Source: Secundilactobacillus similis DSM 23365 = JCM 2765 (GTDB lineage: Bacteria; Bacillota; Bacilli; Lactobacillales; Lactobacillaceae). Taken from it: a DNA stretch of 64,000 nt. Shown here one piece after another: positions 7,107 through 16,063 of this stretch. The stretch lies in NCBI RefSeq assembly GCF_001311075.1, contig NZ_BBAD01000002.1, positions 1 to 64,000 of the forward strand, read 5' to 3'. Position numbers and translations under genes: made by a program. The first letter of the stretch is position 1. Every line of letters begins with the position of its first letter. Under the pieces are notes generated by a model. The model had not been told where the DNA came from. It did no database searches and saw nothing but the letters and a program-made list of their open reading frames with translations.

Positions 7107-7405
7107 AAAAAACTATCCGCCCATAACAACGCAATGACTGCTTTGTTATAAGGACGGATAGTTTTTTATTCCGCGGTGCCACCTTACTTTGACGGGAAGA
7201 TTCCCGTCACCCTTAGCGAAGTGCGTGTTCACACTTCCGGCAACTGACGTATGCCAACACGTTTTCCCCTACTTGTTTCAGGGAAACCCTCTGTGGTCCA
7301 TTTAACTGCCTGCGTTCGGTCGTACTCTCAGCAACGACGACTCTCTTTACGTGCACAACAATCTTGATCTCCACATCATCGGTTTTTATGGACGGTATTT
7401 AATTG
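7107..7405 (-). promoter_or_regulatory. Tryptophan T-box leader of trpEG
   Basis: The minus strand shows AAGGTGGCACCGCG (complement of 7171-7186), specifier TGG (7298-7300) followed by ACC, and a terminator in which AAAACTATCCGTCC pairs with GGGCGGATAGTTTT followed by T (7107-7166). Stem I is nearly identical to that of the trpD T-box. Uncharged tRNA-Trp should switch on trpEG. Confidence 0.94.
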
Positions 7406-7541: not shown

Positions 7542-8450
7542 CTAGTTAGTTGAGTTGACCCAGTCTCGAATAAGCTGACCATGCCAAGTCCGACTACTAA
7601 AATCTTGATAAATTGCTTGGTTAAAGCAGGTTAACAGCTCAGCCTCCGTCAGTTCGCGATCCAAAGTGATTCGCTGGTGATCCGCGCGAACGATAACGTT
7701 GCTGAGGAGTTCAAGCAGTAGGAATCGAGAGCCAATCAAGACGCTAGGATCAAGCACTTGAACCTCAGTTGATTGACCATCGGTTAGAATAATCGGCGTT
7801 AGTTCAGGCTTATCCAGGAGATACAGCGTGTTTGGCTGACAGTCTTCAAATGGATACGCTTGGAGTTGATGATTGCCACTGATGATGGCGACTTGTTGGA
7901 GGTTGAATTGGTCGAGCAGGAATTGGTAAACGTGTTGCCAAGTAGTGAGGGAATCGTTGCTTGGGGTGAGTTGTTTGACGGTGAGTCCCCAATCGGCAGC
8001 ATTGGTAGCTAGTTCTGGTTGGCTGCCTAGTTGAAGGATGAACGGACTGGTGCCGGAGTAGGTGTGGCGTGGTCGATCATATAGTGGTGCGGGGGCAAGC
8101 GGTAAGTCAAAAATGGGATCAATATAGGTGAAATTAACCAGCCGTTGGGAACGGTCGGTAATGTAAAGATACTGGTCGCGGTCCACGATTTCGGGTGGCG
8201 TAAACGTCATGTAAACTTTCCCGGCGTCATCGCTGAGCTCAAGTACCTGACGTTGTTCGTCAAACGCCCACTGGGTAAACTGAGGGTTGAATTTCATATT
8301 CGTTGGAAAATCAAAGCCGCCATCGGAACGAAAAATTAAGATCAATTCCCCGCCATCGTGACCCATTGCGATACTCTTCCAGAAATTGGTTTTGGCCTCT
8401 AATCGCCAACGTTTATGAATGATGAGTTGTTTAAAATCATTAGTTTTCAA
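7542..8450 (-). CDS. Glycosyltransferase-like protein, probably degenerate, with N-terminal domain
   Basis: 302 residues from a TTG start placed by a TTGGAGG site. The second half resembles the product of the neighbouring gene at 8474: compare AIISGNHQLQAYPFEDCQPN here with FFVDLTDVQMRNYPFDHLQP there, and near the ends IYQDFSSRTWHGQLIRDW with AYHDFSDCLVHGRLVASR. The acidic D-x-x-D stretch of the neighbour (VDLTD) is absent here (ISGNH), so catalysis is doubtful. The first ~110 residues (SIAMGHDGGELILIFRSDGG, then a Phe/Tyr-rich stretch) form an extra domain I do not recognise. The two genes are 23 bases apart and probably cotranscribed. Role unknown. Confidence 0.75.
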   Translation of the reverse strand: MKTNDFKQLIIHKRWRLEAKTNFWKSIAMGHDGGELILIFRSDGGFDFPTNMKFNPQFTQWAFDEQRQVLELSDDAGKVYMTFTPPEIVDRDQYLYITDRSQRLVNFTYIDPIFDLPLAPAPLYDRPRHTYSGTSPFILQLGSQPELATNAADWGLTVKQLTPSNDSLTTWQHVYQFLLDQFNLQQVAIISGNHQLQAYPFEDCQPNTLYLLDKPELTPIILTDGQSTEVQVLDPSVLIGSRFLLLELLSNVIVRADHQRITLDRELTEAELLTCFNQAIYQDFSSRTWHGQLIRDWVNSTN

Positions 8451-8473: not shown

Positions 8474-9262
8474 CTATTTATGTTGAAACCAAGCGGTTGT
8501 TGATGGTTCGTGAAAGGCCAGTCGGGATGCGACCAGCCGACCGTGAACGAGACAATCGCTGAAATCGTGATAGGCAACGTAATTAACCAGTGCCATTTCT
8601 AAGTTACCGATGGTGTTAGGCTGGTGAGCCAGTTGGTCAGTTGCTTCGGCATTAGCAATGTGGACGGTTAAACTACCTAAAAAGGCCATCACAACGTCCC
8701 GATAACCACCAACGACGCCTGGATTAAGAACCTGAAGGGTTTTATTTTCGGCGAAGAAGGTTTTGGTGGTGGCTAGGGTGGCGTGGGCTTGAATGATATC
8801 AGCGGATAGGTCGGAAAGTTCATCCCCAAAGTAGAGTTTACCAGGTTGAAGGTGATCAAACGGATAGTTGCGCATTTGAACATCAGTTAAGTCAACGAAG
8901 AAGACCTTTTCGATTTCTGGATGTTGTTTGAGAAAAGTGAACGCCATTTCCCAACGATAAAAATAGAGGGTTAGCTGGTTGTAACCGGTGAATAGCGGGA
9001 CTTTAGTGACGGTTAACCCGGGCCGTTCAATGACTTGATCCGTATTGGTTAACACGATTGTACGAGTCCCAAAGTGGTGGGTAGAAGCTGCCAGCTTTTG
9101 AGCATGCTTTAAAAGGGCATCATTGTCTTCGTATTCTTGATGACGCTGAACGTCTTTCATATTGGTAATGTATTCCCCGATGACGGCAGTTGATTCGAAG
9201 GTCCGGTGCATCGTTTGGGGCATCGGCACGCGTTGAAGGGATGAAACTCGATCCAGATCCAT
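8474..9262 (-). CDS. Putative glycosyltransferase-fold protein
   Basis: 262 residues; I place the start at ATG 9262 because AGGTGA lies 5 bases upstream. The order TRTIVLTNTD, FLKQHPEIEKVFFVDLTDVQM, GKLYFGDE, LQVLNPGVVGGYRDVV and ALVNYVAYHDF is what a GT-A nucleotide-sugar fold would give: an acidic D-x-x-D site after a beta strand, then a conserved NPGVVGG loop. The family is inferred from fold-like motifs only, and the sugar and acceptor are unknown. It is first in a two-gene unit with the degenerate paralogue at 7542. Confidence 0.7.
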   Translation of the reverse strand: MDLDRVSSLQRVPMPQTMHRTFESTAVIGEYITNMKDVQRHQEYEDNDALLKHAQKLAASTHHFGTRTIVLTNTDQVIERPGLTVTKVPLFTGYNQLTLYFYRWEMAFTFLKQHPEIEKVFFVDLTDVQMRNYPFDHLQPGKLYFGDELSDLSADIIQAHATLATTKTFFAENKTLQVLNPGVVGGYRDVVMAFLGSLTVHIANAEATDQLAHQPNTIGNLEMALVNYVAYHDFSDCLVHGRLVASRLAFHEPSTTAWFQHK

Positions 9263-9534
9263 AAGAGTCACCTAGCTTTCGTTATGATTCAATTAACCTA
9301 ATAGTACAAAAGTTTCAGAGGCAACGCTAGTGCGGAATGGTAGCGGTAACTTTGAGTGATGAGTACCAAGGGTAACGTGAAGCCGCGATTGAATAATGTG
9401 AAACTGATAAAACGATGATGAGAGTCGCTTAGATAGACAATCTCTATAAAAAATTAAAAAAATTCTATGATTTTGAATCCCTTGGCGCACAAGGGATTAA
9501 GCGCACTTTTGTAAAATTAAAATTTGATTAGTGG
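9263..9534. other. Divergent intergenic region
   Basis: AT-rich from about 9430, separating the minus-strand glycosyltransferase pair from the aro leader. I could not assign a convincing minus-strand promoter. Confidence 0.5.
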
Positions 9535-9563
9535 TTGACAGATGAATTCTAATAGTTTAAAGT
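9535..9563 (+). promoter_or_regulatory. Promoter of the aro operon
   Basis: TTGACA (9535-9540), 17-base spacer, TAAAGT (9558-9563), about 40 bases before the leader peptide ATG. Confidence 0.75.
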
Positions 9564-9605
9564 CAGAGACAATCAAAATCTAATAAAGTTTTAGGAGTCC
9601 TTATC

Positions 9606-9671
9606 ATGAATCTGAATTTGAAAGCATTAAACCGACAATTAAATCGATTTAGTTACTATTGGCTAAAGTAG
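9606..9671 (+). CDS. Aromatic leader peptide of the aro operon
   Basis: A 21-residue frame with an AGGAG site 8 bases before the ATG. It starts MNLNLKALNRQ and ends RFSYYWLK, so one Phe, two Tyr and one Trp codon cluster just before the stop. It heads shikimate pathway genes, whose end products are exactly these three amino acids. The Tyr-Tyr-Trp codons overlap one arm of a stem that can form with 9718-9726. I infer a ribosome-mediated attenuation leader. Confidence 0.8.
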   Translation: MNLNLKALNRQLNRFSYYWLK

Positions 9672-9860
9672 TGTTCACACCCTCACAGGTTGCGGACACC
9701 CATCCACAATCTGTGCGGCCAATAGTTTTTCAGCATGATAAATGCCGGTCACACAGCTAAGTTTCAAAAACACTGTGTGGCACGGCCAAAATATTTGGAC
9801 CGTTGTTAATGAGTTGAACTTTTAACTTCCCGCAGTGTTAATCACACTGCGGGATTTTTT
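9655..9860 (+). promoter_or_regulatory. Attenuator region of the aro operon
   Basis: Seen: (a) leader codon arm ACTATTGGC (9655-9663) perfectly complementary to GCCAATAGT (9718-9726), followed by TTTT; (b) between them a hairpin 9684-9695 with 9704-9715; (c) a hairpin of GCCG and ACACAG (9744-9756) with CTGTGT and CGGC (9773-9786); (d) an 11-bp perfect terminator stem 9828-9838 with 9844-9854, then six T; (e) 9769-9777 complementary to 9831-9839, a candidate antiterminator competing with both (c) and (d). The terminator ends 50 bases before aroE. The switching order is inferred. Confidence 0.75.
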
Positions 9861-9909
9861 ATGGCCAGTATCACGACGATAGATTTTGAGCGACTAAGGA
9901 GGCTACGGA

Positions 9910-10791
9910 TTGTTTGACGGACACACAAGTTTATACGAATTCATTGCGAATCCAGCGAAGCACAGTTTATCACCGCTGATTCACAACACTAGCTTCCAAG
10001 CGCTTCACATCAATAGCGTTTACCTGGCGGCCGAAATTGAACCAGATCACTTAGAAGATGTGATTCGAGCGATGCGGGCGAACATCATTACGGGGATCAA
10101 CGTCTCGATGCCCTACAAGGAAAGTATTATCCCGTATCTCGATGAACTCACGCCGGTTGCGAAACAGTTAAAAGCCGTAAATACGGTGATCAACCGGGAC
10201 GGCCACCTCGTTGGTGACAGTACGGATGGCGAAGGGTTCCTGAACGCGTTACGAGATGAAGGGGTGACGGTTACCAATCAGCAAGTCGTGGTGCTCGGTG
10301 CTGGCGGTGCCGGCAGAGCCATCATTGAAGCCTGTGCGACTGCGGGCGCAACGGTTACCGTGTTTAAACGGTCTAACGCAACGTTCGATGCCATCCAACA
10401 TCGGTTAACGAGTTGGTCATCTCGTATCACGGTTCAGTCCTATGAAAACGAGACCGAGATGAATCGGCGAATCGCCCAAGCGGATGTGGTTGTGAACACG
10501 ACCAACGTCGGCATGGGTGCTGATGAACGATTACCACTGAGTTCATCGGCCATGCGGCAACTCCACCACGGCCAAGTTGTTGCGGATGTGATTTATGCCC
10601 CACTTGAAACCCCGTTTTTAAGGCAAGCACAAGCGCAAGGGTGTCAAACCACCAATGGTATCGGCATGTTGGTCCATCAAGCAGCGGGGGCGTTGACCCG
10701 CTGGACCGGCCAACGGATGCCAGTTAGTCAAGTGAAGCAAGTTGTTCACCAGTATTTAGAAAATGAAACCAAAACCCAAATTAAAGAATAG
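9910..10791 (+). CDS. aroE: Shikimate dehydrogenase
   Basis: AroE reduces 3-dehydroshikimate to shikimate. 293 residues from a TTG start, chosen because AAGGAGG lies 7 bases upstream and no ATG is near. Seen: the substrate serines in KHSLSPLIHN, the catalytic lysine in NVSMPYKES, the Asn and Asp in AVNTVINRDG and STDGEGF, the dinucleotide loop VLGAGGAGRA, and GIGMLVHQAAGAL with the substrate Gln. Basic residues after strand two (VFKRSN) suit NADP(H). First enzyme gene after the attenuator; a YdiB-like paralogue lies at 14404. Confidence 0.95.
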   Translation: MFDGHTSLYEFIANPAKHSLSPLIHNTSFQALHINSVYLAAEIEPDHLEDVIRAMRANIITGINVSMPYKESIIPYLDELTPVAKQLKAVNTVINRDGHLVGDSTDGEGFLNALRDEGVTVTNQQVVVLGAGGAGRAIIEACATAGATVTVFKRSNATFDAIQHRLTSWSSRITVQSYENETEMNRRIAQADVVVNTTNVGMGADERLPLSSSAMRQLHHGQVVADVIYAPLETPFLRQAQAQGCQTTNGIGMLVHQAAGALTRWTGQRMPVSQVKQVVHQYLENETKTQIKE

Positions 10792-10803
10792 AGGATGAGA
10801 AAT

Positions 10804-11820
10804 ATGATTATTGTACTTAAACCAACTGATAACACCACCATTGCAGAACTGAAGAACCACTTCGAAGGCACCCATGATATCTTTGTTCACCATAACCGGG
10901 TTGCTGTTCAAGGCATCACGCGTGACGACTTAAACGACGTTGAATTAGCCGCCGCTGACGAAATCATTGAAGACGTGCCAGCCGCTGTTCAAGGCAGTCG
11001 TCAATTCCACCCAGAAGACACGGTGATCCGGACGGCACACAGCGTGATCGGTGGGGACCACTTCACCTTGATGGCGGGGCCATGTTCCGTTGAATCATTG
11101 GAACACGTCACCAAGATGGCCGCTGTGGCTAAAGCCAGCGGTGCCACGATCCTCCGGGGTGGCGCCTTCAAGCCACGGACCTCACCATACTCCTTCCAAG
11201 GATTGGGTGAAGATGGGTTGAAATACCTCCGTCAAGCCGCTGACAAATACGGCATGGACGTCCTCACCGAAGTCATGGACGACGAACACGTCAAGATGGT
11301 CGCTAAGTACACCGACATCTTCCAAATTGGCGCGCGTAACATGCAAAACTTCTCACTGTTGAAAGCCGTTGGCAAGACCAACATTCCAGTGATGTTGAAG
11401 CGTGGGATGTCCGCTACGATCGATGACGTGTTGAACGCAACGGAATACATCGCCGCTGGTGGCAACCACAACATCATGATTGCCGAACGGGGTATCCGGA
11501 CGTTTGATAACAAGTACACGCGTAACACTATGGATGTTAGCATCGTGCCAGTGATGCAAAAGTTGACCCACTACCCAGTGATCATCGACCCAAGTCACGC
11601 CGCTGGTCACACGGAATTCGTTACCCCATTGGCCTTAGCCGGAACCGCTGCTGGTGCATCAGGCTTAGTGGTTGAAATTCACGATGATCCAAAACACGCC
11701 TTCTCAGATGGTCCTCAAGCCTTGAAGCCTAACGAATACGCCGATATGGCAGAAAAGGCCTTGGCCATTCGGGAATTGTTGACGGGCATGAAGACTGAAC
11801 AAGCGGAAGCGGGGCGTTAA
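10804..11820 (+). CDS. aroF: 3-deoxy-7-phosphoheptulonate (DAHP) synthase, type I-beta
   Basis: Condenses PEP and erythrose-4-phosphate, the entry step to aromatics. The first ~70 residues (MIIVLKPTDNTTIAELKNHF) form the small ferredoxin-like domain found in some type I-beta enzymes and linked to feedback control. The barrel shows LMAGPCSVES, GGAFKPRTSPYSFQGLG, QIGARNMQNF and PVIIDPSHAAGH. I start at 10804; an ATG three codons earlier overlaps the GAGG site. Twelve bases after aroE. The locus symbol is a choice among several in use. Confidence 0.94.
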   Translation: MIIVLKPTDNTTIAELKNHFEGTHDIFVHHNRVAVQGITRDDLNDVELAAADEIIEDVPAAVQGSRQFHPEDTVIRTAHSVIGGDHFTLMAGPCSVESLEHVTKMAAVAKASGATILRGGAFKPRTSPYSFQGLGEDGLKYLRQAADKYGMDVLTEVMDDEHVKMVAKYTDIFQIGARNMQNFSLLKAVGKTNIPVMLKRGMSATIDDVLNATEYIAAGGNHNIMIAERGIRTFDNKYTRNTMDVSIVPVMQKLTHYPVIIDPSHAAGHTEFVTPLALAGTAAGASGLVVEIHDDPKHAFSDGPQALKPNEYADMAEKALAIRELLTGMKTEQAEAGR

Positions 11821-11824
11821 TCAC

Positions 11825-12880
11825 ATGACAGAAATTTCGGTGACGTTACCCGAAAAACAGTACCAAGTTAAAATCGACCGCGGCTTGTTAGCTCAAGTCG
11901 GAACGCTAGTAGCTGAACAGTGGTCACCACGTAAAATCGCGTTAGTGAGTGACGACAACGTCGCACCGTTGTATCAAGAGCGGGTAGCCACCTCGTTGAC
12001 TGAGGCTGGCTTCACCGTTCACTGTTACGACTTTCCGGCTGGTGAAGCGTCCAAATCACTGACGGTGTTAGCTGATTTGGCGCGTGAGATGGCCAAGGAT
12101 GCCTTTAACCGCGATGATGGCGTGATTGCCTTAGGTGGTGGCGTAACTGGTGACTTAGCTGGCTTCCTAGCAGCAAGTTACATGCGTGGTATCAGCCTCA
12201 TTCAGATCCCCACATCATTACTGGCACAAGTTGACAGTTCGGTGGGCGGCAAAACGGCCGTTGATCTAGATACCATCAAGAACATCATCGGGGTATTTTA
12301 CGAACCAGACCTCGTTATCGTCGATCCAGATACCCTGAAAACGTTGACCCAACGGGATCTCGTTGAAGGGTACGGTGAAATCGTGAAGACGGCAGCTTTG
12401 AAAGGTGGTGAATTCTGGCAACTGATCGAAACGATCAATTCACCTGCCGACATCATGGCGCATTCGCCTGAGCTCAGTGCTCGGTCGATCCAGTACAAGG
12501 CCAACGTGGTCATGGCAGATGAAACCGAAAGCGGTCAACGTCAACTGCTAAACTTCGGCCATACCATTGGTCACGCGGTTGAAGCGTTAGCTGATGGCGG
12601 GTTACGACATGGTGAAGCCGTCAGCATCGGGATGATTGCGTTGATGCAAATCTTTGAAGATGCTGGTCGAGCCGAAGCGGGCATTACCGCCCAAATCAAG
12701 GCGCGTTCCGAGGCGGTTGGCTTACCAACCACCTCACCGTTGTTAACCTCTACTAAAGTATTGGACAAGGTTAAGAACGATAAGAAGAACCGCCACGGGC
12801 ATTTGAACCTTGTGTCACTTAAGGCCATTGGCGAACCTGAAATTACGTCGGTGCCAAGTGAGAGATTGCATCGTTTTTAA
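11825..12880 (+). CDS. aroB: 3-dehydroquinate synthase
   Basis: Converts DAHP to 3-dehydroquinate with NAD and a divalent metal. 351 intact residues: GEASKSL, DGVIALGGGVTGDLAGF, PTSLLAQVDSSVGGKTAVD, the metal ligands in EGYGEIVKTA, FGHTIGHAVEAL and RHGEAVSIGM. The ATG is 4 bases after the DAHP synthase stop, with only a modest GGGGCG site, so coupling is likely. Last gene of the biosynthetic part of the aro unit. Confidence 0.97.
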   Translation: MTEISVTLPEKQYQVKIDRGLLAQVGTLVAEQWSPRKIALVSDDNVAPLYQERVATSLTEAGFTVHCYDFPAGEASKSLTVLADLAREMAKDAFNRDDGVIALGGGVTGDLAGFLAASYMRGISLIQIPTSLLAQVDSSVGGKTAVDLDTIKNIIGVFYEPDLVIVDPDTLKTLTQRDLVEGYGEIVKTAALKGGEFWQLIETINSPADIMAHSPELSARSIQYKANVVMADETESGQRQLLNFGHTIGHAVEALADGGLRHGEAVSIGMIALMQIFEDAGRAEAGITAQIKARSEAVGLPTTSPLLTSTKVLDKVKNDKKNRHGHLNLVSLKAIGEPEITSVPSERLHRF

Positions 12881-13075: not shown

Positions 13076-13112
13076 TTACGGCAAACCAATTAGAAAAGTG
13101 TAGGTGATCAAA

Positions 13113-14372
13113 ATGTCCCATGCGGAACGAATGAAAACAGCGATTTGTCTGTACCTGAACTACTTGGTTCACGGAATGGCCATTGTGATTCTGGCGCAGA
13201 ACATGATCGTATTAGGTAAAGAATGGCACGTTGGCGACGCTGGCGTTGCTTACGTCATCTCGTCATTAGGAATTGGTCGGTTAATTGTGTTATATCTCGG
13301 CGGTGAAATTTCAGACCGCATGGGTCGGCGCTTTATGGTTAAAATCGGCGTCGTTACATACGCCCTGTTTTTCGTGGGGATCTTAATTTCGAAGAATATG
13401 TATGAAGCATACTTCTTCGGCATCTTAGCTGGCATGGCCAACTCATTCTTAGATACCGGGACTTATCCCGCATTGATGGAATTGTTCCCCCGCAAGCAAG
13501 CATCTGCCAACATTTTGATCAAGGCCTTCGTGTCAGTTGGCGAACTGATTTTACCGATCTTCGTTGCTAGTTTGGAACACTTTGACCTGTGGTACGGTTG
13601 GTCATTCTCAGTTTGTGCCGTCCTGTTAGCAGCTAACTTTATCTTCCTATGGAATCGCGAATTTCCTGATATGGCCGCCCACAAAGCAAAACGGGCCGCT
13701 AAATTAGCCGCTAAGCAAGCTGGTCAAACGCCGGTCGAAGCGGCTGCGGCTAACCCAGCTGAACCTAAGCAACCATTAACCGGTAGTCAGTGGGCGTTGG
13801 GCATCGTGCTCACCATCTTCGGCTACGTTTCAATGTCGACCTTCTACCTCATTAGTCAATGGTTGACCCAGTACGGCAAAGACGTTGTGAACTTGGACAT
13901 GACACACGCGCGGTTACTCGTTAGTATCTACAGTATCGGGTCGATCAGCGGCGTGTTGTTAACGGTCATCCTAGTAGAACGGGTCCTTAAACCAGCCTGG
14001 TTCATGTTGCTGGATACCACCATTTCATTCATCACGCTATTATTAATGGCCAGCACACCGGTTCTTCCCGTCATGTTAGTTGGGTCATTTGTCATCGGCG
14101 CCTCCGCTGCAAGTGGCGTCATGCAGATGGGAATGACCATCATGGGGATCGCCTTTCCAAAGGCCAAGGGCCGGATCACTGGGATCTACAACATGGCCGG
14201 TGCCTTATCCTCCTTCACAATTCCAATCGTGACCGGGGTACTTTCTAAAACCAGTGTTCACAGTATCATGTGTTTCGACGTGTTTATCGCCGCCATCGGC
14301 ATCGTCTGCAGTTTATGCGTGATCCTGATCTTCAAGAAGAGTCACGTCTCAGTCACAGAAGAAGTTGCTTAA
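13113..14372 (+). CDS. MFS permease, probably for quinate or shikimate
   Basis: 419 residues with about twelve hydrophobic segments and the MFS loop DRMGRRFMVK after the second one; a basic, Ala-rich central loop (residues ~190-225) separates the halves. The start at 13113 follows AGGTGA. The substrate is inferred from position: it is followed by a YdiB-like dehydrogenase and a 3-dehydroquinase, and preceded by the aro genes. Uptake of another cyclic acid is possible. Confidence 0.8.
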   Translation: MSHAERMKTAICLYLNYLVHGMAIVILAQNMIVLGKEWHVGDAGVAYVISSLGIGRLIVLYLGGEISDRMGRRFMVKIGVVTYALFFVGILISKNMYEAYFFGILAGMANSFLDTGTYPALMELFPRKQASANILIKAFVSVGELILPIFVASLEHFDLWYGWSFSVCAVLLAANFIFLWNREFPDMAAHKAKRAAKLAAKQAGQTPVEAAAANPAEPKQPLTGSQWALGIVLTIFGYVSMSTFYLISQWLTQYGKDVVNLDMTHARLLVSIYSIGSISGVLLTVILVERVLKPAWFMLLDTTISFITLLLMASTPVLPVMLVGSFVIGASAASGVMQMGMTIMGIAFPKAKGRITGIYNMAGALSSFTIPIVTGVLSKTSVHSIMCFDVFIAAIGIVCSLCVILIFKKSHVSVTEEVA

Positions 14373-14403
14373 ATCAAATACATTCATCAAGGAGCGCAAA
14401 CTT

Positions 14404-15282
14404 ATGTTAAATCAATTAGACGGACACACCATTTTAATCGGCTTGATGGCTTACCCCATTCGCCATTCCATGTCACCAACCATGCACAACCATTCATTTG
14501 AAAAGTTAGGCTTGAACTACGCCTACTTAGCTTTCGAAGTCGACGATAAGACCTTGCCTAAAGCAATCGACTCGATCCGGGCGCTAGACATGCGCGGTTC
14601 TAACATTTCGATGCCAAACAAGCAAACCGTTATTCCACTTTTGGATAAGTTGGACCCAACGGCTGAAATGATTGGGGCAGTTAACACCATTGTGAACGAC
14701 AACGGCGTTTTGACTGGCTACACCACTGACGGGGTTGGCTTCATGCAGTCCTTAGATGATGAAAACCTCAACATTCGCGGCCAAAAGATGGTCTTAAGCG
14801 GTGCCGGTGGTGCGGGGACGGCGATTGCCATCCAAGCGGCATTTGACGGTGTTAAGGAAATGGCGATCTTCAACCGGGACGATGAGTTCTTGGAAAATGC
14901 GCAACGCAACGTTGATATCATTAACGAAAAGACCGATTGTAAGGCCACGTTACACCATTTGGAAGACCAAGACGACTTCAAGGCGCAATTGGCGGACGCC
15001 TTCATCTACTGTGATTCAACCAGCGTCGGCATGAACCCATTGGAAGGGCAAACACTGATCAGCGACCCAAGTTGGTTCCGTAAAGACCTGATCGTGTACG
15101 ATACGGTTTACGCGCCACGGACAACGAAGCTGATGGAAGTCGCTGAAGCCGGTCACGTGGACCACGTCTTCAACGGTTTGGGCATGATGCTTGAACAGGG
15201 AGCTGCGGCCTTCAAGTTGTGGACTGGTGAAGATATGCCAGTCGACTACATCCATGACATTTTATTTAGCGAAGACAAATAA
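14404..15282 (+). CDS. YdiB-like quinate/shikimate dehydrogenase
   Basis: 292 residues of the shikimate dehydrogenase family with RHSMSPTMHN, NISMPNKQTV (catalytic Lys), AVNTIVNDNG, TTDGVGF and LSGAGGAGTAIA. After the second strand it reads IFNRDDEFLENAQ, close to the FNRRDEFF segment of E. coli YdiB, whose acidic residue lets it use NAD. This separates it from the biosynthetic AroE at 9910. Start at 14404 with a CAAGGAG site, 31 bases after the permease. Expected role: interconversion of quinate or shikimate with the dehydro acids. Confidence 0.88.
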   Translation: MLNQLDGHTILIGLMAYPIRHSMSPTMHNHSFEKLGLNYAYLAFEVDDKTLPKAIDSIRALDMRGSNISMPNKQTVIPLLDKLDPTAEMIGAVNTIVNDNGVLTGYTTDGVGFMQSLDDENLNIRGQKMVLSGAGGAGTAIAIQAAFDGVKEMAIFNRDDEFLENAQRNVDIINEKTDCKATLHHLEDQDDFKAQLADAFIYCDSTSVGMNPLEGQTLISDPSWFRKDLIVYDTVYAPRTTKLMEVAEAGHVDHVFNGLGMMLEQGAAAFKLWTGEDMPVDYIHDILFSEDK

Positions 15283-15299: not shown

Positions 15300-16063
15300 G
15301 TGGTGGTTAAACAGACGGTAACATTACGACAAACGGTTCTCGGTAGTGGCCGGCCAAAGTTGGCGGTACCGGTAACGGGTCGAACGGCAAAGGCGATTTT
15401 AAGCCAGGCAGCGGATGCGGTTGCAGCCAAGCCGGACTTAGTGGAATGGCGGATCGACTTCTTCGATGACGTTCAAGATGCGCTGGCGCTGCAACGCGTT
15501 GGGGCACAGTTGCGTGACGTTTTAGGGGACGTGGCGTTGCTGACAACCTTCCGGACGAAGCAGGAGGGCGGCGAATTGGCGTTGCCAGATGAGGATTACT
15601 TCCAAATCTGCGCCACGGTGATCAACGGGAACTTCACGGATGCGTTGGATTTGGAACGCTACCATGATGAGGGCCGAATCGAGCATTAGTGACTCAGGCC
15701 CACGCCAAGCAAGTTGCTATCGTGATGAGTAACCACGACTTTGACCAAACCCCAACCGAGGCCGAACTCATTCGGCGGTTAGGTGATATGGCTGATTTGA
15801 AGGCGGACGTCCTCAAAGTTGCCGTAATGCCACAGTCGGTTGACGATGTGCTGACGTTGTTGGCAGCAACGCACCATGCCAACCAGGCGTTAGCACAGCC
15901 CATCATCACCATGTCCATGGGCGACCTTGGTAAGGTGACCCGCATGGCCGGCGAACTCGTCGGCTCCGTTGTCAGTTTCGCCACGGTCGGCGCTGCTTCA
16001 GCACCGGGACAGATTGCGTTAACGCATCTGAAGGGCGAATTAGACGATTTGAAATTAAGTTAG
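15300..16063 (+). CDS. aroD: Type I 3-dehydroquinate dehydratase (one-base frameshift)
   Basis: Interconverts 3-dehydroquinate and 3-dehydroshikimate through a Schiff base. GTG start behind AAGGGG. Seen: LVEWRIDFF (substrate Glu and Arg), the catalytic histidine in VMSNHDF, the Schiff-base lysine in VLKVAVMPQS, and TMSMGDLGKVTRM. The frame breaks at 15681-15684; adding one G gives RIEALVTQAHAK and a 254-residue protein of normal length. Last gene of the module, followed at once by a strong terminator. Confidence 0.93.

Follow-up and report, generated by a model that had tools for sequence, protein, structure and literature searches.

A probable aromatic leader-peptide attenuator 5' of aroE-aroF-aroB in Secundilactobacillus similis and its candidate relatives in the Lactobacillales

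In the 64,000-nucleotide stretch of the Secundilactobacillus similis genome analyzed here (the window), the genes aroE, aroF, and aroB are preceded by an RNA element that is probably a leader-peptide (ribosome-mediated) transcription attenuator with an extra relay. The leader, its codons, the stems, and their alternatives are present in the sequence, and the codon stem is backed by covariation and the antiterminator stem 5:6 by shuffled controls, while we infer how the events follow one another and how the element responds to starvation. Our results support the attenuator interpretation of the initial annotation and add to it a stem that begins at the stop codon (9671-9676/9694-9699), a spread across the order, and relatives that are already in Rfam under other names. 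On balance, we lean toward the broader view that these elements form a Lactobacillales superfamily of aromatic leader-peptide attenuators (Phe/Tyr, Trp, and three-in-one) that would include sRNA_2410 and the trpB riboswitch candidate, and that the seven-segment relay would serve as a three-state ribosome sensor, OFF when the ribosome is absent, ON when it is stalled, and OFF when it has finished.

RESULTS

The leader and its surroundings in the window. The aromatic codons of the leader ORF are F, Y, Y, and W at codons 15, 17, 18, and 19 (Table 1), and the 21-codon leader ending in FSYYWLK that the initial annotation had described 5' of aroE-aroF-aroB, with its Shine-Dalgarno (SD) sequence and alternative stems, is confirmed in the sequence. 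The promoter and terminator that had also been proposed are both present and kept in the genus, but single matches of either kind are no better than chance (promoter, 2 found versus 2.1 expected; terminator, 1 found versus 0.9 expected). The two calls are credible because they are conserved in the genus: TTGACA can be read in 12 of 13 genus rows (the 13th row, L010, is cut short), and a hairpin followed by a T run can be seen by eye in 13/13. The leader RNA as a whole (9570-9862) folds at -89.9 kcal/mol versus -59.6 ± 4.7 kcal/mol in shuffled sequences (z = -6.5; 0/200).

An Rfam search of 9535-9909 returned no family, T-box included, at its cut-off, and a pattern search for YYW leaders across the source genome gave 4 matches versus 3 in the reversed control. 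As for the trp T-boxes that had been assigned to the same locus, one does stand 5' of trpE in the divergent trp operon, outside the device, but Rfam finds this single T-box and not several. Between it and the aro leader lie two neighboring minus-strand proteins (7542-8450 and 8474-9271) that share weak similarity (25% over 141 columns; E = 1e-8) and have no Pfam or NCBIfam hit at E 0.001. On the other side of the aro genes, the gene for type I 3-dehydroquinate dehydratase (aroD) falls into two adjoining frames (15300-15689 and 15689-16063), each of them one half of PF01487, which is a frameshift either in the strain or in the assembly. Near the split aroD, a second shikimate dehydrogenase paralogue stands next to an MFS transporter (13104-15282), and together these genes are perhaps a cluster for the uptake and use of quinate or shikimate.

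Table 1. Features of the aro leader and its context, with a recurrent pair of Rfam matches in other genomes of the order
Feature	Position	Strand	Details and basis
Promoter TTGACA, 17 nt, TAAAGT	9535-9563	+	10/12 consensus matches; TTGACA kept in genus
Shine-Dalgarno AGGAG of leader ORF	9593-9597	+	Sequence; SD-like sites also 5' of relatives' leaders
Leader ORF	9606-9671	+	ATG 9606 to TAG 9671, 21 codons; peptide MNLNLKALNRQLNRFSYYWLK (ends ..NRFSYYWLK)
Segment C, Tyr-Tyr-Trp codon stretch (codon lock)	9655-9662	+	ACUAUUGG; pairs with 9719-9726
Segment 1'	9671-9676	+	GUGUUC, begins at stop codon; can pair with GGACAC 9694-9699
Segment 2	9684-9692	+	CACAGGUUG; pairs with 3a
Segment 3	9707-9726	+	3a 9707-9715 (with segment 2), 3b 9719-9726 (with codons); 9711-9720 alternatively with segment 4
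Segment 4	9744-9756	+	Partner is segment 5 or 9711-9720
Segment 5	9769-9786	+	9773-9786 with segment 4; 9769-9777 can take 9831-9839 (antiterminator)
Intrinsic terminator, segments 6 and 7 plus U tract	9828-9860	+	Hairpin 9828-9854; sequence
aroE, shikimate dehydrogenase	9910-10791	+	TTG start, AAGGAGG 9896-9902; Pfam and NCBIfam
aroF, DAHP synthase (B. subtilis type)	10795-11820	+	Pfam and NCBIfam
aroB, 3-dehydroquinate synthase	11825-12880	+	Pfam and NCBIfam
T-box 5' of trpE, divergent trp operon (context, outside device)	7147-7388	-	Rfam RF00230
RF04312/RF02863 pair	G046, contig C1, 1410361 and 1413362; also G151, G099, G122, G258, and G250		Rfam matches

The codon stem is conserved and covaries. 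The leader codons are conserved in relatives: leader DNA was matched in 13 of 15 genomes of the genus, the window's own counted, and NRFSYYW is retained in all 13, the remainder of the peptide being variable. One of the two non-matching genomes (G008) has another leader, TRYYYYWFI, 5' of aroC, and the second (G014) has no match to the leader model R1 (see below) either. The pairing of the Tyr-Tyr-Trp codons with segment 3b, noted earlier as reaching from 9718 to 9726 and placed here at 9719-9726, is likewise borne out in the sequence, with a duplex that is matched by 3/100 shuffles, and the compensatory changes that such a stem should display were found across genera. In a 12-row alignment of three genera (10 of the 13 rows from the genus, the others from two further genera), every cell of the codon:3b helix pairs, and the helix contains a double change in Loigolactobacillus, where Tyr UAU becomes Phe UUU.

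For a wider covariation test, 74 leaders ending in a Trp cluster, 1 of which lacks a partner in the position range, were condensed to 23 distinct genus/codon/partner rows with five variable positions, the partner being chosen by position and not by fit. In these rows, 102 of 115 variable-position cells pair versus 84.7 (SD, 2.9) in reshufflings, none of 20,000 of which reaches 102; the count keeps two misread rows, L329 (partner at 26 nt) and L254 (last Trp taken instead of the YYYW Trp). The codon/3b rows include ACUAUUGG/CCAAUAGU, AUUACUGG/CCAGUAAU, ACUUCUGG/CCAGAAGU, and GCUAUUGG/CCAAUAGC. The change from the first of these to the second is synonymous, with Tyr-Tyr-Trp in both, yet compensated, which argues that the RNA pairing itself is under selection. 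With 119 of 126 rows used (duplicates or short rows were dropped), the codon duplex is equaled by at most 5 of 100 dinucleotide shuffles in 54/68 Lactobacillaceae leaders and in 46/51 leaders of the RF02863 type.

Support for the other stems is uneven. Segmentation succeeded for 122 of 126 rows, and the remaining stems were tested on 110 distinct rows of the 122. That 9769-9777 can pair with 9831-9839 and thereby open the terminator, as had been suggested, is seen in the sequence of the window, and this antiterminator (5:6) is equaled by at most 3 of 60 shuffles in 44/63 Lactobacillaceae and 41/47 RF02863-type leaders and beats 95% of other-class swaps in 50/63 and 42/47, respectively. The weakest stem is 3:4, for which at most 3 of 60 shuffles are as good in 37/63 Lactobacillaceae and 28/47 RF02863-type leaders; it is better than 95% of class swaps in only 27/63 and 2/47, respectively, numbers that do not test the stem because segments 3 and 4 are alike between the classes.

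The helix made by segment 1' reads GUGUUC:GGACAC in the window and GUGUCU:AGACAC or GUGUCU:AGGCAC in the other 12 genus genomes, with one pair changed on both sides. Longer 1' stems that share bases with 2:3 are seen by eye in enterococcal-type leaders and in some other Lactobacillaceae leaders. In the window, 1' and 3a use neighboring, non-overlapping parts of segment 2, so that 1':2 and 2:3 would be mutually exclusive there only if a pseudoknot is unfavorable.

Proposed mechanism and computed folding. We propose that the ribosome on the leader would report the charging of Phe-, Tyr-, and Trp-tRNA through two sets of stems, an ON set (1':2, 3:4, and 5:6) and an OFF set (codon:3b or 2:3, then 4:5 and the terminator). 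A ribosome that is done with the leader would sit on the stop codon and cover 1', which would give 2:3, 4:5, and terminator 6:7 (OFF). With no ribosome present, the Tyr-Tyr-Trp codons would pair with 3b and lock segment 3, and 4:5 and the terminator would again form (OFF). A ribosome stalled at an aromatic codon would cover the codons but leave 1' free, and 1':2, 3:4, and then 5:6 would follow, opening the terminator (ON).

This scheme was compared with equilibrium folding into pseudoknot-free structures under a 31-nt ribosome mask placed at each codon, with the transcript ending after segment 6. For the RF02863-type leaders (48 of 53 rows, those ending in FR), the mean balance of 5:6 minus 4:5 lies at -6.3 to -8.2 pairs as long as the ribosome has not reached the cluster. 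It moves to between -1.8 and -3.1 when the A site holds N, Y, Y, F, S, or Y and returns to between -5.2 and -5.6 at the final F, R, and stop; with no ribosome at all it is -6.2. Aromatic codons shift the balance by +2.4 pairs on average, and the shift is positive in 31/48. This profile fits the three-state logic, yet the mean remains on the terminator side and the medians shift less. Taken singly, 9/48 leaders are OFF both in the ribosome-free state and at the stop but cross over at an aromatic codon. In 2 more, crossing is confined to non-aromatic codons, whereas 19 never leave the OFF state and 5 never leave the ON state. Against the simple model, a mid-cluster mask makes the mean 1':2 pairs drop from 11.1 to 5.7 and the 2:3 pairs climb from 3.2 to 9.3. 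The 69 Lactobacillaceae leaders include 4 that cross at an aromatic codon and 3 that do so only at a non-aromatic one, while 36 are always OFF and 18 are always ON, with a mean shift at aromatic codons of +0.6 pairs that is positive in 39/69.

The window leader itself switches at no codon under the ribosome masks and is OFF throughout, and we rejected its masked equilibrium folding as proof of a switch. With the codons covered, its 3:4 fold is 3.4 kcal/mol worse than the best fold, a gap that ranges from 0.1 to 5.9 kcal/mol over 13 genus genomes and is smallest in L008 (0.1) and L013 (0.4). Because the window stays OFF and 3:4 lags the best fold, the case for the mechanism proposed for the window is carried by homology, codon content, and covariation and not by the folding energies of its RNA.

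Spread in the Lactobacillaceae. R1, a model of the leader built from 12 leaders, matches 110/397 Lactobacillaceae genomes in 21/40 genera at E values up to 0.01, a count in which the matches with E of about 0.001 to 0.01 lie mostly outside the 77 examined, and some of them may be due to chance. By script, 71 of these 77 have an SD-preceded aromatic ORF whose end lies 21 to 39 nt into the match. Among the remaining six, four (L305, L307, L308, and L321) have an NSYYYFWFM or NRYYYFWFM leader and a weak SD by eye, L331 has no aromatic leader by eye, and L267 is an incomplete locus in which the leader position was not located. F, Y, and W all occur within the last 12 codons in 67 of 72 leaders (these 71 and the window), a share that is partly circular since the model includes the codons, whereas start codon, SD, and gene context were not built in. 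The residues before W vary (FYYYW 25, YYYYW 14, FSYYW 5, FYSYW 4, YFYFW 4, YYYFW 4, and others).

The genes 3' of the 72 leaders, classed by crude motif matches, are transketolase (25), aroF (23), aroE (9), aminotransferase (8), ABC substrate-binding (3, among them L310, which looks like aroF by eye), aroC (1), PTS-like (1), and unclassified (2), and almost all are aromatic-pathway genes. One subtype (L329, L315, L318, L324, and L327) has a YYFWFF or YFWFF leader 5' of an aminotransferase-like gene; in two of these (L318 and L329), the codon partner that fits best is just 26 nt past the Trp codon. In Lentilactobacillus (L045 and L046), an aromatic leader stands about 4.5 kb 5' of aroE, and the genes in between read by eye, in L046, as a chorismate-mutase-like start, aroC, aroA, tyrA, and aroK.

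Two Rfam families look like sister families of the aro leader. The enterococcal-type aroE leaders match Rfam RF02863, sRNA_2410. This family (cut-off, 61 bits) has no match in the window, nor in the source genome at E 0.001, and it matches 214/395 Lactobacillales genomes (98 over cut-off) in 52/80 genera; among 249 genomes drawn from the phylum, it matches 1, which is itself within the Lactobacillales. Of the best 30 RF02863 loci, 29 have a leader ending in ..FYFSYFR or a close variant at a constant position, and in 60 further loci a leader was found by script in 54, the other six showing FYFSYFR or YYFSYFR codons by eye. By crude motifs, the 54 leaders stand 5' of genes for ABC substrate-binding proteins (24), aroE (22), aroF (2), pheA (1), and unclassified genes (5), and none of the 54 has a Trp within its last 12 codons. 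They share with the window's leader the aromatic codons, the codon duplex, 4:5, 5:6, and the terminator (by script), 1':2 and 2:3 (by reading), and a place 5' of aroE, pheA, aroF, and ABC substrate-binding genes; they differ in that FYFSYFR is without Trp, whereas the window's leader has F, Y, and W. In E. faecium, sRNA_2410 was seen by Northern blotting as two transcripts and listed at 195 nt, according to Sinel 2017 (PMC5593968), in whose text the words "leader" and "attenuat" are absent. Premature termination would leave just such a stable product, about 195 nt long.

The second family is RF04312, the trpB motif, which Narunsky 2024 (PMC11109978) presents as a strong riboswitch candidate while stating that a classic attenuator cannot be ruled out. 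RF04312 (cut-off, 59 bits) has no match in the window or source genome; it occurs at 25 places in 23/60 relatives and in 4/249 genomes of the phylum sample, of which 1 is over cut-off and within the Lactobacillales. A strict scan just 5' of the motif found an SD and an ORF with Trp in its last 8 codons at 18/25 places versus 0.29 expected from shuffles, and 16 of those ORFs have WQ or WH versus 0.03 expected; one of the 18 (L174) has a different peptide and another gene downstream. Four more places have a leader by eye (L156, L158, L163, and L172, the last without a clear SD), L176 carries an FYFSYFR leader, and L175 and L178, at 40 to 41 bits versus the cut-off of 59, have none. In a further set of over-cut-off loci, for which there was no shuffle control, 26/26 have an SD and a Trp ORF ending 9 to 27 nt 5' of the motif, 24/26 leaders have WQ or WH, typically as ..SWQNWRR, and three of the 26 loci precede a gene that reads as TrpB by eye.

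RF04312 resembles the window's element in its leader ORF with Trp codons just upstream, its place 5' of trpB and ABC substrate-binding genes, and its antiterminator and terminator, as described in Narunsky 2024 (PMC11109978); it differs in having been published as a riboswitch candidate and in having fewer segments. In several genomes of the order, RF04312 (Trp type) and RF02863 (Phe/Tyr type) matches lie about 3 kb apart on one contig (Table 1). Codon content follows class, with F, Y, and W in most Lactobacillaceae leaders (67/72), no W in RF02863 leaders (0/54), and W in 26/26 RF04312 leaders, the counterpoint being that enterococcal-type aroE leaders are without Trp although aroE serves all three amino acids. 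In L334 to L336, trpX-like genes (by eye) stand behind a Trp leader and are without a T-box by Rfam. A T-box upstream of trpX has been tested in S. suis and predicted in S. pneumoniae (PMC9382623).

DISCUSSION

The trp and pheA operons of E. coli are controlled by leader-peptide attenuators, and the element in the window shares with them a leader ORF with end-product codons, alternative stems, an intrinsic terminator, and codons that lie within a stem arm. It differs from them in that its proposed logic would be shifted by one segment, with a stem starting from the stop codon, in the added relay hairpin 4:5, and in the coverage of F, Y, and W by a single leader. The Leu/phe leader of Lactococcus lactis (Rfam RF01743), listed in Table 1 of Weinberg 2010 (PMC2864571), is similar by name, as a Leu or Phe operon leader in the Lactobacillales, and has no match in the window or in the loci of nine relatives. 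The histidine leader peptides 5' of hisS/hisZ in bacilli, described in Naville 2010 (PMC2965389), in whose text the word "aromatic" is absent, are alike as classic leader peptides in Firmicutes and differ in amino acid and genes. A full-text literature search, with most subscription journals outside its coverage, returned no description of this aro leader, and within the same scope RF02863 and RF04312 were not found described as leader-peptide attenuators. Leader-peptide attenuation as such has long been known; the features that appear to be new are the relay, a single leader for three amino acids, the spread over the order, and a different assignment for two Rfam families.

Other readings of the same element have to be weighed. 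It is improbable, though the strongest of the competing explanations, that the leader encodes an arrest peptide, whose nascent chain (..FSYYW, ..FYFSYFR) would sense a free amino acid or metabolite in the tunnel and whose stall would drive the same RNA switch. TnaC is such an arrest peptide, which responds to Trp in the ribosome tunnel. The conservation of residues other than aromatic ones in the enterococcal type (LNN..FSYFR) and the end of the leader shortly past the motif would both suit an arrest peptide, but the Lactobacillaceae residues before W turn over together with matching 3b changes (with less turnover in RF02863), and the codon content is, class by class, what tRNA reading predicts, with Trp 5' of trp genes.

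We give still less credence to the idea that these RNAs act without translation, either as a riboswitch or tRNA-sensing RNA, in line with the published view of the trpB motif (a strong riboswitch candidate in Narunsky 2024, PMC11109978), or as a trans-acting small RNA, in line with the published view of sRNA_2410 and its two Northern blot transcripts (Sinel 2017, PMC5593968). The failure of the ribosome masks to reproduce switching for most leaders would be expected if translation had no part in it, but every over-cut-off RF04312 locus of the further set (26/26) has an SD and a Trp ORF, the strict scan exceeds its expectation (18/25 versus 0.29), neither a T-box nor any other Rfam family reaches its cut-off in 9535-9909, and the roughly 195-nt RNA is the remnant that premature termination would be expected to produce. 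Least probable of all is a leader that sets only basal read-through by translation-transcription coupling, without specific amino acid sensing, which would agree with the weak or absent computed switching of most Lactobacillaceae leaders, the window included, but not with the match of aromatic codons to genes for the aromatic pathway and for transport that is seen in R1 as well as in two Rfam families.

Amino acid operons of Gram-positive bacteria are usually credited to T-boxes and TRAP. Under the attenuator reading that we prefer, the aromatic pathway and its transporters appear to be governed by classic leader peptides across an order that comprises food, gut, and clinical bacteria, and both an orphan enterococcal small RNA and a published riboswitch candidate gain a simple function. 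Because the same kind of gene (trpX or trpX-like) is under a T-box in some species and stands behind a Trp leader in others, the exchange of RNA strategies becomes directly open to study. In the leader described here, one short peptide seems to integrate three amino acids on their shared shikimate trunk.
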